Assembly (NCBI GenBank): GCA_024637315.1
Contig: JAGXFH010000042.1
Span: forward strand, 1-64,000
Length of the DNA stretch: 64,000 nucleotides
From: Brevirhabdus sp.
Lineage (GTDB): Bacteria; Pseudomonadota; Alphaproteobacteria; Rhodobacterales; Rhodobacteraceae
Direction of reading: 5' to 3'
The number at the start of each line of letters is the position of its first letter. Within the stretch, counting starts at the first letter, position 1. The position numbers were made by a program, and so were the translations under genes. The notes beneath the pieces were generated by a model. It made no database searches. It was not told the origin of the DNA and was given only the letters and a program-made list of their open reading frames with translations. Below, piece by piece: positions 50,387-55,747 of this stretch.

Positions 50387-51409
50387 CTAACCCTTTTTGA
50401 GAACCCGCTGACCAAGGACGTCGGCGATCTGGACCGCGTTCAGCGCGGCACCCTTGCGCAGATTGTCCGAAACGCACCACAGGTTCAGCCCGTTTTCGAT
50501 CGTCGGGTCCTGACGGATGCGACTGATGAAAGTGGCATAGTCGCCGACGCACTCCACCGGAGTGACGTAGCCGCCATCTTCACGCTTATCGACGACAAGC
50601 ACGCCAGGCGCTTCGCGCAGGATGTCGCGGGCTTCGTCCTCGTCAAGATGATCCTCGAACTCGATGTTAACCGCCTCGGAATGACCAACGAAAACCGGCA
50701 CCCGGACGCAGGTCGCCGTGACCTTGATAGACTTGTCGAGGATCTTCTTGGTTTCGGCGACCATCTTCCATTCTTCCTTGGTCTGTCCATCTTCCATGAA
50801 GATGTCGATATGCGGAATCACGTTGAAGGCAATCTGCTTGGTGAACTTGGATGGGGCCACTTCCTGCCCCGGCACATACATCCCCTTGGTCTGGTCCCAA
50901 AGCTCGTCGATGCCCTCTTTGCCGGCGCCCGATACTGATTGATACGTGCTTACGACGACGCGCTTGATCCGGGCGCGATCGTGCAGCGGCTTGAGAGCGA
51001 CGACCAGTTGCGCGGTCGAACAGTTCGGGTTGGCGATGATGTTCTTTTTGGCATATCCGACGATCGCGTCTGCGTTCACCTCGGGCACGATCAAGGGCAC
51101 CTCCGAATCGTAGCGGTACAGCGAGGAGTTGTCGATCACCACGCAGCCGACCTTCGCCGCTTTCGGCGCGTATTGCTTCGTGGCTTCAGAGCCGACCGCG
51201 AACAGCGCGATGTCCCAACCGGTGAAGTCGAACCCGTCGAGGTCCTTGGTCTTGAGGGTCTTGTCGCCAAAGCTGACCTCCGTCCCGAGAGATCTGCGCG
51301 ACGCGAGGGCCACGATCTCATCGACGGGGAACTGGCGTTCGGCCAGGATGTTCAACATTTCGCGGCCCACGTTTCCGGTGGCGCCCACGACGGCGATTCT
51401 GTAGCCCAT
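50387..51409 (-). CDS. asd: Aspartate-semialdehyde dehydrogenase
   Basis: This NADPH enzyme makes L-aspartate semialdehyde from aspartyl phosphate, the branch point to lysine, diaminopimelate, threonine and methionine. It has 340 residues. GATGNVGREML at about 9-19 is the nucleotide loop. The active-site Cys is in NPNCSTAQ near 128-135, with SGAGKEG near 164-170 and the catalytic His in a FVGHSEAVNIEFE segment near 240-252. It is monocistronic with its own terminator. Aspartate semialdehyde is also the precursor of ectoine, though no ect synthesis genes are in the window. Confidence 0.96.
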   Translation of the reverse strand: MGYRIAVVGATGNVGREMLNILAERQFPVDEIVALASRRSLGTEVSFGDKTLKTKDLDGFDFTGWDIALFAVGSEATKQYAPKAAKVGCVVIDNSSLYRYDSEVPLIVPEVNADAIVGYAKKNIIANPNCSTAQLVVALKPLHDRARIKRVVVSTYQSVSGAGKEGIDELWDQTKGMYVPGQEVAPSKFTKQIAFNVIPHIDIFMEDGQTKEEWKMVAETKKILDKSIKVTATCVRVPVFVGHSEAVNIEFEDHLDEDEARDILREAPGVLVVDKREDGGYVTPVECVGDYATFISRIRQDPTIENGLNLWCVSDNLRKGAALNAVQIADVLGQRVLKKG

Positions 51410-51543: not shown

Positions 51544-53238
51544 TTATTCCATCGGATACAGCGTTATCCGAGGGTCGGCCTCGATCAGCCTGTGGACGAA
51601 GGCGGCCTCGACGCCGAAATCATGTGGCACGTCGGCGGCTGTGCGGCTGCCGGTCAGCGACAGGCTGTCGAAGAAATCAAACCCATACAGATCGATCACG
51701 GCCGCATTGGAGGCTGCGACCAGGTCGATCATCATCAACCCGGTTGTCGGCGGTGCGCCGAGGGTATCGCGGAGCGTCGCGAAAGCGCCTACCGGATGGA
51801 GATAGAACCCTTCCGTCTCCAAAGCCCAAAGAGGCAGCCGCTTGCGCTTGTGACTCATCCACAAGACCCGGGCCGCGCTGATCCGACGCGCCAAACGCCG
51901 GTCAAGCGTCGTCGCAAGCGCCAACCAGTCGGTTCGCGTGCCATGCGAAAACGCGCTGGGGCGCGGGGCGCGATTTATCCGAATGACCAGATCGGCCTCG
52001 TCGATATCCTCGCCGTAATCCATGTCGGCCAGCGCCCGCGCATTGCCGACGATAGCTACGCTCTTGCCGTCGAGATCGTTCATAAGATCGTCACGCGTCG
52101 CGGAATACTCTGTCAGCTTGTCGGCCTTGCCGTATCGGTTCAGCGCCAGTTCGGCCAGCGCCAGCAGGTCGGGGCGCGCCCGAAGCGCCAGAAGTTCGCG
52201 GTAGACAGCGATGATCGCCTCTGCCTCGCGCTCGATGGTGAAGTGTCTCAGAACGTGCAGACGGCCAGCCTCACCCATGCGCCGAAGCACGCGCGGATCC
52301 GAGATCATGGACTCGATCGCGGCCGCCAACGCGCTTGCATCACCCGGATCGACCAGCTTGCCGGTCTGGCCCTCGATCACCTGCGCCTCGAACGCGCCGA
52401 CGCGGGTTGCCACGGCCGGTACGCCACAAGCCATCGCCTCGATCGGGGTCAGGCCGAAGCCCTCCCAGCGGGCGGGCGCCACGAACAGATCCATCGCCTG
52501 ATAGTGCTTGATAAGATCATCCCAGCTGACTTCGCCGCGGAAGAGTACACGGTCAGCCAGTCCGGCGGCTTCCAGCCGGCCGCGAAGGTCATCGACGTAG
52601 CCCTGGTTGTCCGGCGTCACACGCCCGGTAAAGACGATGCGGGCATTCGGGTGCCGGGGCAGAATGTCCAATGCCGCCTCGACCAGAACATCCGTGCCCT
52701 TCTGGTGACGTATCCGCCCAAAGCAACCGATCAGGGTTCCTGGCGGCAAGCCAAGCGCATAGCGCAAAGCCGCCTTGTCCGTCGCCGGGTGAAAATCCTC
52801 GGTATCGACGCCGTGCATGATCACCGTGGCAGGGCGCTCGAGATACCCGGCCGCCTGCGGCGAGGTTGCGATCACCGCGTCCATTCGTGCAATCAGCGCC
52901 CTGGTGTAGCCCGAATGCGCACGCTGTGCCGCCGAGGTGAACAGCAGCCGCAACTTGCGCCGAAACAGATATCGCAGCACAAGCCCCAGCGCCATTTCGG
53001 TGTTGCGGCGCGCATGCCAAACCCGCCAGCGGTTGCGTGGCAGCACGAACATGCGCCAGAGTGGCAGATGCGGGATATTCTCGGGAAGTCCGGGGCCGGT
53101 TGTAGCGATGTTGATTTTCCGGGCCTGTGCAGGCACCAGTCGCAGCACCGTGGTGGTCACCCCCGACAGCCGGTACTTCAGGTTCGGCGCGATGACCTCG
53201 ACCGAGCGAATGTCAGGATGGTTTGCCTTCTGCTGCAT
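51544..53238 (-). CDS. Fused GT4 glycosyltransferase and GT29-like (sialyltransferase-type) protein
   Basis: This 564-residue protein starts at ATG 53238. Residues ~1-370 are a GT4 (GT-B fold) transferase with GCFGRIRHQKGTDVLVEAA near 171-189 and the EX7E motif EGFGLTPIE at 259-267. Residues ~390-564 resemble GT29: VAIVGNARAL...YGEDIDEADLVIRINRAP near 394-425 looks like sialylmotif L, TTGLMMIDLVAAS...VIDLYGFDFF like motif S, and PHDFGVEAAF the last His/Glu motif. Likely function is surface glycan or LPS core assembly. The donor of the GT29-like half is unknown; bacterial members are not proven sialyltransferases. It follows the MFS gene by 10 bases. Confidence 0.85.
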   Translation of the reverse strand: MQQKANHPDIRSVEVIAPNLKYRLSGVTTTVLRLVPAQARKINIATTGPGLPENIPHLPLWRMFVLPRNRWRVWHARRNTEMALGLVLRYLFRRKLRLLFTSAAQRAHSGYTRALIARMDAVIATSPQAAGYLERPATVIMHGVDTEDFHPATDKAALRYALGLPPGTLIGCFGRIRHQKGTDVLVEAALDILPRHPNARIVFTGRVTPDNQGYVDDLRGRLEAAGLADRVLFRGEVSWDDLIKHYQAMDLFVAPARWEGFGLTPIEAMACGVPAVATRVGAFEAQVIEGQTGKLVDPGDASALAAAIESMISDPRVLRRMGEAGRLHVLRHFTIEREAEAIIAVYRELLALRARPDLLALAELALNRYGKADKLTEYSATRDDLMNDLDGKSVAIVGNARALADMDYGEDIDEADLVIRINRAPRPSAFSHGTRTDWLALATTLDRRLARRISAARVLWMSHKRKRLPLWALETEGFYLHPVGAFATLRDTLGAPPTTGLMMIDLVAASNAAVIDLYGFDFFDSLSLTGSRTAADVPHDFGVEAAFVHRLIEADPRITLYPME

Positions 53239-53248
53239 ACTGCGCGGC

Positions 53249-54433
53249 TTACACGGCCCGGTCGCTGCTGAAAAGATAGATGGCGCACCCGGCCAGCAGC
53301 ACCAGTGCCAGACCGAGGAACAACAGACCGTAAGCCTCTGTCGGCGAATTGCCGCCAGCAATGAACCTCGCGTAGAGCCCGCCGCTGAAAAACTGCATCA
53401 GGCCGACCCCGCCGATCCCGAAAAGGTTGAGAAGCGTGACACCACGCCCGGTCAGGTGCGGCGGCACAAAGCTGCGGCCATGCGCCATGATCAGCGGAAA
53501 GGACGCACCGAAAAGCCCGACCGCCGCGATCAGCAATGTGGTGTTCAGGATGTTACCCGCCGGGAAGGCCCACATCCCGATCAGGCAAGCGACCGCGATC
53601 AGGTTGCCGATCAGCACGACCCATTTGCGTGTGCCGAACACCCGGTCAAGCGGACCATAGGCAAAATTGCCAATGATCATCGCAACCCCCATCACCAGCG
53701 TGATCCGACCGATTCCACTCGCGTCATAGCCGTAGACATCGCCCAGATAGGGGCCTACCCAAAGCCCGCGAAGTGCCGCCGCGGGGGCGTAGTTCACCAG
53801 CATCATCGGCAGGATGAACCATAAAGCGGGGATCTTGAGCAGATCGAGTAGCGAGCCACGCCCCGTCGCAGTCGATTCCAGCCGATCGGGATCTTTCGTG
53901 AACATCGCGACCGCCAAGGCGACAGTCAGCGTTATCGCCGCAAGCCCCGCAAGGGTTTCGCGCCAGCCGAATCCCTCGACCGCCATTGCCAGCGGCACAG
54001 AACCCGCAAGGTTGCCAAGCGAACCGATGCCGATCATGGCGCCCGCCAGCGTGCCGAAGACGGCGGGCGAGTAGACCCTGGCAAAGATGTAGTAGCTTGC
54101 CATCAGGACCGGTGAACAGCCGATACCGATCAACACCATCGCAAGGTAGATGGCGCCTGGACCCTGCGCCAAGGCGAAGATCAGCGCCCCGCCAGCGCCG
54201 CCGATCCCCAGCAGCGCCGCGGCCGTGCGGCGGGGTCCAACCGTATCAAGCGCCCAACCGACCGGGATCTGCATCGCGGCGAAGGCGATGAACCAGAGGC
54301 CCGATGCGGCCGACAGAACGTCTGCCCCGGCACCGATGTCGCGCAGCAGCGCGGGGGCCATGACCGCAAGGAAAGCGCGATAGAACTGGCTAAGGACATA
54401 GGCCAGTACAAGAAAGAACAGTCCGGCCTTCAT
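53249..54433 (-). CDS. MFS transporter
   Basis: This 394-residue membrane protein has about 12 hydrophobic segments. The first half holds FIAFAAMQIPVGWALDTVGPRRT, the MFS loop 2-3 pattern, and the second half a weaker repeat. Closest feel is the NarK/OFA-like or sugar-phosphate branch, but no substrate residues can be read. It lies between ugd and the glycosyltransferase fusion, 9 bases after ugd, in one transcript. It may export or import a glycan precursor, or be unrelated. Confidence 0.8.
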   Translation of the reverse strand: MKAGLFFLVLAYVLSQFYRAFLAVMAPALLRDIGAGADVLSAASGLWFIAFAAMQIPVGWALDTVGPRRTAAALLGIGGAGGALIFALAQGPGAIYLAMVLIGIGCSPVLMASYYIFARVYSPAVFGTLAGAMIGIGSLGNLAGSVPLAMAVEGFGWRETLAGLAAITLTVALAVAMFTKDPDRLESTATGRGSLLDLLKIPALWFILPMMLVNYAPAAALRGLWVGPYLGDVYGYDASGIGRITLVMGVAMIIGNFAYGPLDRVFGTRKWVVLIGNLIAVACLIGMWAFPAGNILNTTLLIAAVGLFGASFPLIMAHGRSFVPPHLTGRGVTLLNLFGIGGVGLMQFFSGGLYARFIAGGNSPTEAYGLLFLGLALVLLAGCAIYLFSSDRAV

Positions 54434-54442
54434 CCGCCGATC

Positions 54443-55747
54443 CTAGCGCCCCACCGCGACGTATGTCTCGAACCCTGCGCGTTTTGCATCCTCGGGCGCG
54501 TATATGTTGCGCAGATCGGCCATTCGAGGAGTGGTCATCTTGCCCGCAAGCCGTTCGAGGTCGAGGGCGCGGAACTCATTCCATTCGGTCAGCAAAACCA
54601 CCGCATCGGCATCTTCTGCGGCGACGTAGGCGTCATCGACCCAGACGGCTCCGGGCAGCAGGTCCTCGCCCTCGCGCCGACCCTGCGGGTCGACGACCCT
54701 CACCTTGGCGCCGCCGCCGATGAGCGCCGGCACGATCGTCAGTGACGGTGCATCCCGCATGTCATCCGTATTCGGCTTGAACGTCACCCCAAACACCGCG
54801 ATGGTCTTGTTTTTCACGCTGCCGTCGCAGAGATCGAGGATCTTCTCGATCATCCGGCGCTTGACCTGATCGTTGACCTTTATCACTGTCTCGACGATCT
54901 GCATCGGCATCGCATGTTCCTGACCGATCCGCGCCAGCGCGCTGGTATCCTTGGGAAAACACGATCCGCCATAGCCCGGCCCGGCATGAAGGAACTTGTT
55001 GCCGATGCGGTTGTCGAGGCCGATGCCCTTGGACACTTCCTTCACATCCGCGCCAACCTTTTCGCACAGGGCGGCGATCTCGTTGATGAAGGTGATCTTG
55101 GTGGCAAGAAAGGCGTTGGCGGCATACTTTATCATCTCGGCGCTTTCGAGATCGGTGGTGACGACCGGAAAGTCCCGCAGGAACAGCGGCCGGTAGACTT
55201 CGTTCATCACCTTGCCGGCACGGTCGGACTGGATCCCGACGATTACCCGGTCAGGCCGCATGAAATCGTCGATTGCCGCGCCTTCGCGCAGGAATTCAGG
55301 GTTCGAGGCGACATCGAATTCTGCATCCGGCCGGGTCCTGGCAATGATCTCTTGGACCTTGCGGTTGGTTCCGACGGGGACGGTGGATTTGGTGACGACG
55401 ACGGTATAGCCAGTCATCGCGTTCGCGATCTCTTCGGCAGCCGCGAAGACATAGGTAAGGTCGGCATGGCCATCGCCGCGCCGGGTGGGTGTGCCGACCG
55501 CGATGAACACCGCCTCGGCCTCGGCGACCGAGGCCGCCAGATCGCCTGAAAAGGTCAACCTGCCGGACGCGACATTCTTGGCCATCAATTCATCAAGGCC
55601 AGGCTCGTAGATTGGCACTTCGCCGCGTTCCAGCATCGCGATCTTGTTCGGGTTGATGTCGACGCAGACGACTTCGTGCCCGAAGTCGGAAAAGCACACA
55701 CCAGATACCAGACCCACATAGCCGGTTCCGATCATCGCAATCTTCAT
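54443..55747 (-). CDS. ugd: UDP-glucose 6-dehydrogenase
   Basis: This enzyme oxidises UDP-glucose to UDP-glucuronate with two NAD+, for exopolysaccharide, capsule or LPS. It has 434 residues. The N-terminal Rossmann loop MIGTGYVGLVSGVCFSDFGH is at about 5-24, VFIAVGTPTRRGDGHADL near 79-96, and the catalytic Cys is in HAGPGYGGSCFPKDTSAL near 251-268. VFGVTFKPNTDDMRDAPS near 316-333 is the second dinucleotide region. It leads the ugd-MFS-glycosyltransferase run, which supports surface polysaccharide synthesis. Confidence 0.95.
   Translation of the reverse strand: MKIAMIGTGYVGLVSGVCFSDFGHEVVCVDINPNKIAMLERGEVPIYEPGLDELMAKNVASGRLTFSGDLAASVAEAEAVFIAVGTPTRRGDGHADLTYVFAAAEEIANAMTGYTVVVTKSTVPVGTNRKVQEIIARTRPDAEFDVASNPEFLREGAAIDDFMRPDRVIVGIQSDRAGKVMNEVYRPLFLRDFPVVTTDLESAEMIKYAANAFLATKITFINEIAALCEKVGADVKEVSKGIGLDNRIGNKFLHAGPGYGGSCFPKDTSALARIGQEHAMPMQIVETVIKVNDQVKRRMIEKILDLCDGSVKNKTIAVFGVTFKPNTDDMRDAPSLTIVPALIGGGAKVRVVDPQGRREGEDLLPGAVWVDDAYVAAEDADAVVLLTEWNEFRALDLERLAGKMTTPRMADLRNIYAPEDAKRAGFETYVAVGR

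Follow-up and report, generated by a model that had tools for sequence, protein, structure and literature searches.

The fusion gene and its two halves

This locus raises the question of whether a bacterial GT-B glycosyltransferase and a domain of the sialyltransferase family GT29 are truly encoded as one chain and, if so, which sugars that chain may transfer. In the window, i.e., the whole stretch of 64,000 nucleotides of the Brevirhabdus genome that was analysed, the minus-strand frame at 51544..53238 runs exactly from ATG to stop and encodes a protein of 564 aa, while the plus strand of the same interval gave zero Pfam matches. The protein matched Glycos_transf_1 (PF00534, 2.6e-39, residues 169-326) and Glyco_transf_29 (PF00777, residues 391-437, 1.1e-9 and 38.5 bits, where the curated cut-off is 23). 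On the minus strand it divides into a GT4 (GT-B) half (residues 1-350, 52189..53238) with an EX7E catalytic motif recognised from the sequence (EGFGLTPIE, residues 259-267, 52438..52464), a linker (residues 351-390, 52069..52188), whose position coincides with the N-terminus of stand-alone GT29 proteins, and a GT29 domain (residues 391-564, 51547..52068).

An uninterrupted 564-aa frame with the same architecture was found in a second Brevirhabdus species (MAG Ww113; genome G001, locus L050). Between the two species the pN/pS values of the GT4 and GT29 halves are 0.256 and 0.263, while the 40-residue linker, with an identity of 37.5%, reaches 0.616; both halves are kept under equal purifying selection and the linker is free to vary. 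The preliminary description of a GT4-GT29 fusion with a bacterial GT-B N-terminal half is upheld by Pfam matches to both halves, by the EX7E motif and GT-B structural matches of the GT4 half, and by the frame of the second species.

All conserved neighbours lie on the minus strand. Upstream are an MFS transporter gene (53249..54433, PF07690), which precedes the corresponding LPS-core gene pair in many relatives, and ugd (UDP-glucose/GDP-mannose dehydrogenase family, 54443..55747), which is also an upstream neighbour in the closest relatives. Downstream is asd (aspartate-semialdehyde dehydrogenase, 50387..51409), whose function is probably unrelated to that of the fusion gene. No sigma-70-like promoters were found in the region around the fusion gene, and terminators occurred at chance level.

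The C-terminal half belongs to GT29

The blocks that had first suggested GT29 (VGNARAL, DLYGFDFF and PHDFGVE) were located on the minus strand and correspond to sialylmotifs L, S and VS, respectively. The L block (VAIVGNARAL...IDEADLVIRINRAP, residues 393-441, 51916..52062) includes VGNARAL from residue 397, the S block (PTTG...DLYGFDFF, residues 497-522, 51673..51750) starts at residue 497, and VPHDFGVE, from residue 537, contains the VS motif H-x4-E with a putative catalytic base (HDFGVE, residues 539-544, 51607..51624). From 11 related GT29 domains of the window's subtype we built an alignment (A2), and all 11 of these relatives matched PF00777. Searched against 177,635 distinct PDB sequences, the A2 profile gave just eight matches. 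All are GT29 sialyltransferases (best match 1.2e-9), and motifs L and S follow each other in them as they do in A2. In the alignments with ST3Gal1 and ST8Sia chains, motif S (PTTG...LYGF) forms the second, in-order stretch, with a weak score on its own.

The PDB profile alignments stop short of the VS block; its His and Glu are invariant in A2, as are many L and S residues, and HDFGVE of the window aligns with HDFAAE/HNFARE of a second, neuB-linked type of GT29 from Rhodobacteraceae (A4). Sialylmotif III (H/T-Y-Y) was not recognisable in A2, and a TYYNP block is present in A4. By the profile match together with motifs L, S and VS, the GT29 membership proposed from these blocks is confirmed at the level of sequence. 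A structure model of the whole fusion had a mean pLDDT of 90.7, with the GT29 blocks mostly at 86-97 and dips to 55-74; among the Foldseek matches listed for it against PDB and BFVD, only the GT4 half was covered. The GT29 domain modelled alone, without an alignment, reached a mean pLDDT of 33 and this model was discarded.

The genome favours Kdo as the sugar donor

The preliminary description had proposed Kdo, sialic acid or another nonulosonic acid as donor of the second domain. NeuB was not found in the window genome (G000) or in five relatives by a search that was positive in 9 of 14 control genomes. The window genome has a single CTP_transf_3 gene, classed above cut-off as KdsB (NCBIfam NF003950, 3-deoxy-manno-octulosonate cytidylyltransferase, 7.6e-93). 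CMP-Kdo is thus the only CMP-ulosonate for which a synthetase was found in this genome and, with NeuB absent and KdsB alone, a CMP-nonulosonate route was not found, in an assembly of 86 contigs that could miss genes and has a completeness of 99.9%. Because NeuB is absent and KdsB is the single enzyme of its kind, Kdo is clearly favoured among the proposed donors, and sialic and other nonulosonic acids are disfavoured. Use of CMP-Kdo has been proposed for a plant GT29, RCKT1/MGP2, as transferase of RG-II (PMC11288761), although this is an unfused eukaryotic Golgi enzyme with another acceptor. On contigs C18 and C19 of the window genome we also observed two matches to GT30-type (WaaA-like) N-terminal domains, of which one is strong and the other weaker.

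A donor other than a CMP-ulosonate, such as UDP-glucuronate made by the product of ugd, would fit the position of that gene two genes upstream in the window and in the closest relatives. The GT29 family also includes a galactosyltransferase, the plant enzyme GALT29A, which counts in the same direction. However, the L and S blocks, which bind CMP, show good conservation with those of sialyltransferases, and for no more than a minority of the 80 best-matching loci (of 255, see below) was a nearby ugd detected, so that we regard such a donor as unlikely. The short length of the domain (~175-190 aa) and its missing motif III could instead mean that the GT29 half is non-catalytic and serves the GT4 half as a scaffold or regulator. 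This would leave unaccounted for the invariant VS His/Glu and the many invariant L and S residues of A2, the selection on the GT29 half, which equals that on the GT4 half, and the GT29 domains that stand alone in genomes without the GT4, and we consider a non-catalytic role quite unlikely.

GT29 profile scores were bimodal across the sampled genera of the family, with a strong class at no less than 165 bits (>=165) and a weak class at ~88-121 bits. NeuB was present in 2 of 36 genomes with a strong, A2-type GT29 vs 10 of 10 with the weak type (Fisher p 1.6e-8, a value that ignores kinship), and eight of the weak-type GT29s lie within ~3 kb of neuB. Homology between the A2 and A4 types extends through the entire domain (hhalign E 1.3e-32, probability 99.9), but they form separate subtypes, A4 having the TYYNP motif-III block and adjoining neuB. 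We observed such A4 GT29s within ~3 kb of neuB in G066, G058, G069, G087, G152, G220, G303 and G394, and they are probably true nonulosonate transferases. The strong type is rarely accompanied by NeuB, and the window subtype is therefore very probably independent of sialic acid.

These data also bear on the view that the window GT29 transfers a nonulosonic acid (sialic, legionaminic or pseudaminic) to the LPS core, using a scavenged sugar or an undetected pathway. GT29s are classically sialyltransferases, sialic acid in the LPS of Rhodobacter capsulatus 37b4 is cited in a passage of PMC9631793, and the sister subtype adjoins neuB. Against this, NeuB is absent, the A2 subtype overall rarely occurs with it, and the sole CTP_transf_3 protein is KdsB, which leaves even scavenged sialic acid without a known enzyme to activate it; transfer of a nonulosonic acid is hence very unlikely, and Kdo stays the preferred donor.

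The GT4 half resembles LpcC and LpsB

Pairwise comparison of the GT4 half with LpsB-type proteins of Sinorhizobium and Shinella gave 48-52% over 97-99% of its length. The Sinorhizobium meliloti match is flanked by greA on one side and, on the other, by three further glycosyltransferase genes with an lrp-type regulator gene behind them, in what we take to be the known lpsB locus. The Foldseek GT-B matches of this half include 5i45 (the C-terminal domain of Francisella 'LpcC', TMt 0.95), and the half is the sole LpcC-like GT4 found in the window genome at E<=1e-40. Because of the greA context and the single copy, we regard the GT4 half as a predicted orthologue of LpcC/LpsB, for which we predict mannosyl transfer to Kdo. 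Compared with the GT4 LPS-core mannosyltransferases LpcC (Rhizobium leguminosarum), LpsB (S. meliloti) and WadC (Brucella), it shares full-length similarity, the EX7E motif and the single copy, whereas these three are encoded by stand-alone genes without a GT29. Brucella WadC is itself an orthologue of LpcC, through which it was identified as a core enzyme (PMC3349745).

Fused and separate genes among relatives

A scan of named genomes gave 255 stretches that encode relatives, the best 80 of which were analysed as loci. In 62 of these 80 loci a GT4 coding sequence immediately precedes that of the GT29; two of the 62 are true fusions (L050, of the second Brevirhabdus species, and L077, of a Marinosulfonomonas MAG), one is an apparent fusion (L058) and 59 are separate pairs, among them that of Paracoccus denitrificans (L098). 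In relatives with separate genes, GT4 and GT29 are in different frames, and 46 of the 59 unfused pairs have a candidate GT29 start codon in a 4-nt overlap with the GT4 stop, so that a small indel could fuse the two. The usual gene order is (ugd) - MFS - GT4 - GT29 - asd. In three Defluviimonas loci an extra gene is inserted between GT4 and GT29, which in L060 is a lipid A acyltransferase gene (Lip_A_acyltrans) and thereby links GT4 and GT29 with LPS assembly.

Two different GT4 paralogue groups fill the upstream slot across loci. The GT4 of L077 falls in a different, fully supported group from the window GT4, so that the L077 fusion is probably independent of that in Brevirhabdus, although its GT29 clusters with the window GT29 on a long branch of the tree. 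Three other candidates were rejected: L058, which has a run of N at the junction, the long open frame of G041, where GT4 and GT29 are in different frames, and that of G125, where a GT4 match was not found. That relatives carry two genes in different frames, and that L058 is merely an N run, might suggest that in Brevirhabdus, too, two overlapping genes were joined merely by an error of sequencing or assembly, but this is already refuted by the independent genome of the second species, which has the same 564-aa frame, zero net length change and a shared linker.

Other GT29 partners were seen outside this arrangement. In a 792-aa frame of a Rhodobacteraceae locus (L020:616-2991, plus strand), a GT29 is joined to a polysaccharide pyruvyl transferase domain and to a TPR-like part (below cut-off); by eye only, a minus-strand frame of 718 aa in L021 resembles it. 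Outside the asd locus, the gene immediately before an A2-type GT29 encodes a polysaccharide pyruvyl transferase-like protein in L022 (395-1420) and L036 (1752-2750, minus strand) and, by sequence resemblance only, in L040 and L041, making this a third recurrent GT29 partner. In another alphaproteobacterial family, a 455-aa protein (L131:685-2049) has a near-full-length PF00777 match (7.8e-17) after a long N-terminal part.

A predicted bifunctional enzyme of the LPS inner core

On balance, we think it probable that the fusion is a bifunctional LPS inner-core enzyme that combines a hexosyl(mannosyl)transferase with a CMP-Kdo-dependent transferase, where the activities, the linkage and the order are what we infer from domains, synteny and gene content. 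The GT4 half would place mannose (or another hexose) on the Kdo of Kdo2-lipid A, and the GT29 half would move Kdo from CMP-Kdo, by inverting GT29 chemistry, onto that hexose or onto a neighbouring Kdo. Rhizobium leguminosarum has a distal Kdo transferase, LpcB. Addition of two consecutive sugars by a single chain, as suggested earlier, is plausible as a prediction. The GT29 does not have to use the GT4 product as its acceptor, since G017, G271 and G278 keep an A2-type GT29 although no LpcC-like GT4 was found in them at E<=1e-40. Two further points that count against our reading are the presence of two GT4 paralogue groups in the upstream slot and the lack of a recognisable motif III in A2. Two co-transcribed genes, usually overlapping at the GT4 stop and GT29 start, may have entered one frame, and their fusion would keep the two steps on a single chain. 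The enzyme is probably cytosolic: its best 19-residue hydropathy window has a mean of 1.44, and a membrane span is not evident, which fits assembly at the cytosolic face. An LPS core structure of a close relative was not found in the literature searched, in which papers on the Rhodobacteraceae core and on LpcB were not decisive.

Known systems and implications

WbbB (GT99) has a modular hexosyl-/ulosonosyltransferase make-up, and thus resembles both SiaD/W (GT97) and the present protein in holding the two activities in one chain; WbbB and SiaD/W differ from it in belonging to unrelated transferase families and in serving O-antigen or capsule, not the inner core. The joining of a hexosyl- and an ulosonosyltransferase in SiaD/W is described in PMC5811610, a 2018 study in Sci Rep which also reported bacterial, mostly alphaproteobacterial, GT29 sialyltransferase-like proteins without giving their function. 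That GT29 is mostly known from animals, as previously stated, is therefore outdated, plants having the family too. The reported proteins share with the window GT29 the family, mostly the class, and the L/S/VS motifs, and the conserved sialyltransferase cysteines are missing in that group; neither a GT4 fusion nor LpcC coupling appears in the main text of the paper. In the literature searched, 'bacterial GT29' as a phrase was found only there, and a function for bacterial GT29s was not found. In our own scans GT29 was uncommon in the phylum (9 of 398 genomes), and within Rhodobacteraceae roughly an eighth of the genera had a match. Relative to the literature searched, three things appear to be new, namely the gene fusion, the coupling to LpcC and the split between Kdo and sialate donors, while GT29 in alphaproteobacteria was already known.

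Synteny, gene fusion and the NeuB split together point to one GT29 subtype that transfers Kdo in building the LPS inner core and to another that transfers sialate. With this, the ancestry of the animal sialyltransferase/plant Kdo-transferase family becomes testable in laboratory bacteria such as Paracoccus denitrificans, which has the unfused pair. A broader and more tentative possibility is that one bacterial clade of GT29s, which is coupled to LpcC and was fused to a GT4 on two occasions, consists of Kdo transferases of the LPS core, in which case the plant RG-II Kdo transferases would keep an old bacterial specificity and sialyl transfer would be a variation on it. If this were true, alphaproteobacteria, from which the eukaryotic family has been proposed to derive, would contain GT29s that use Kdo.
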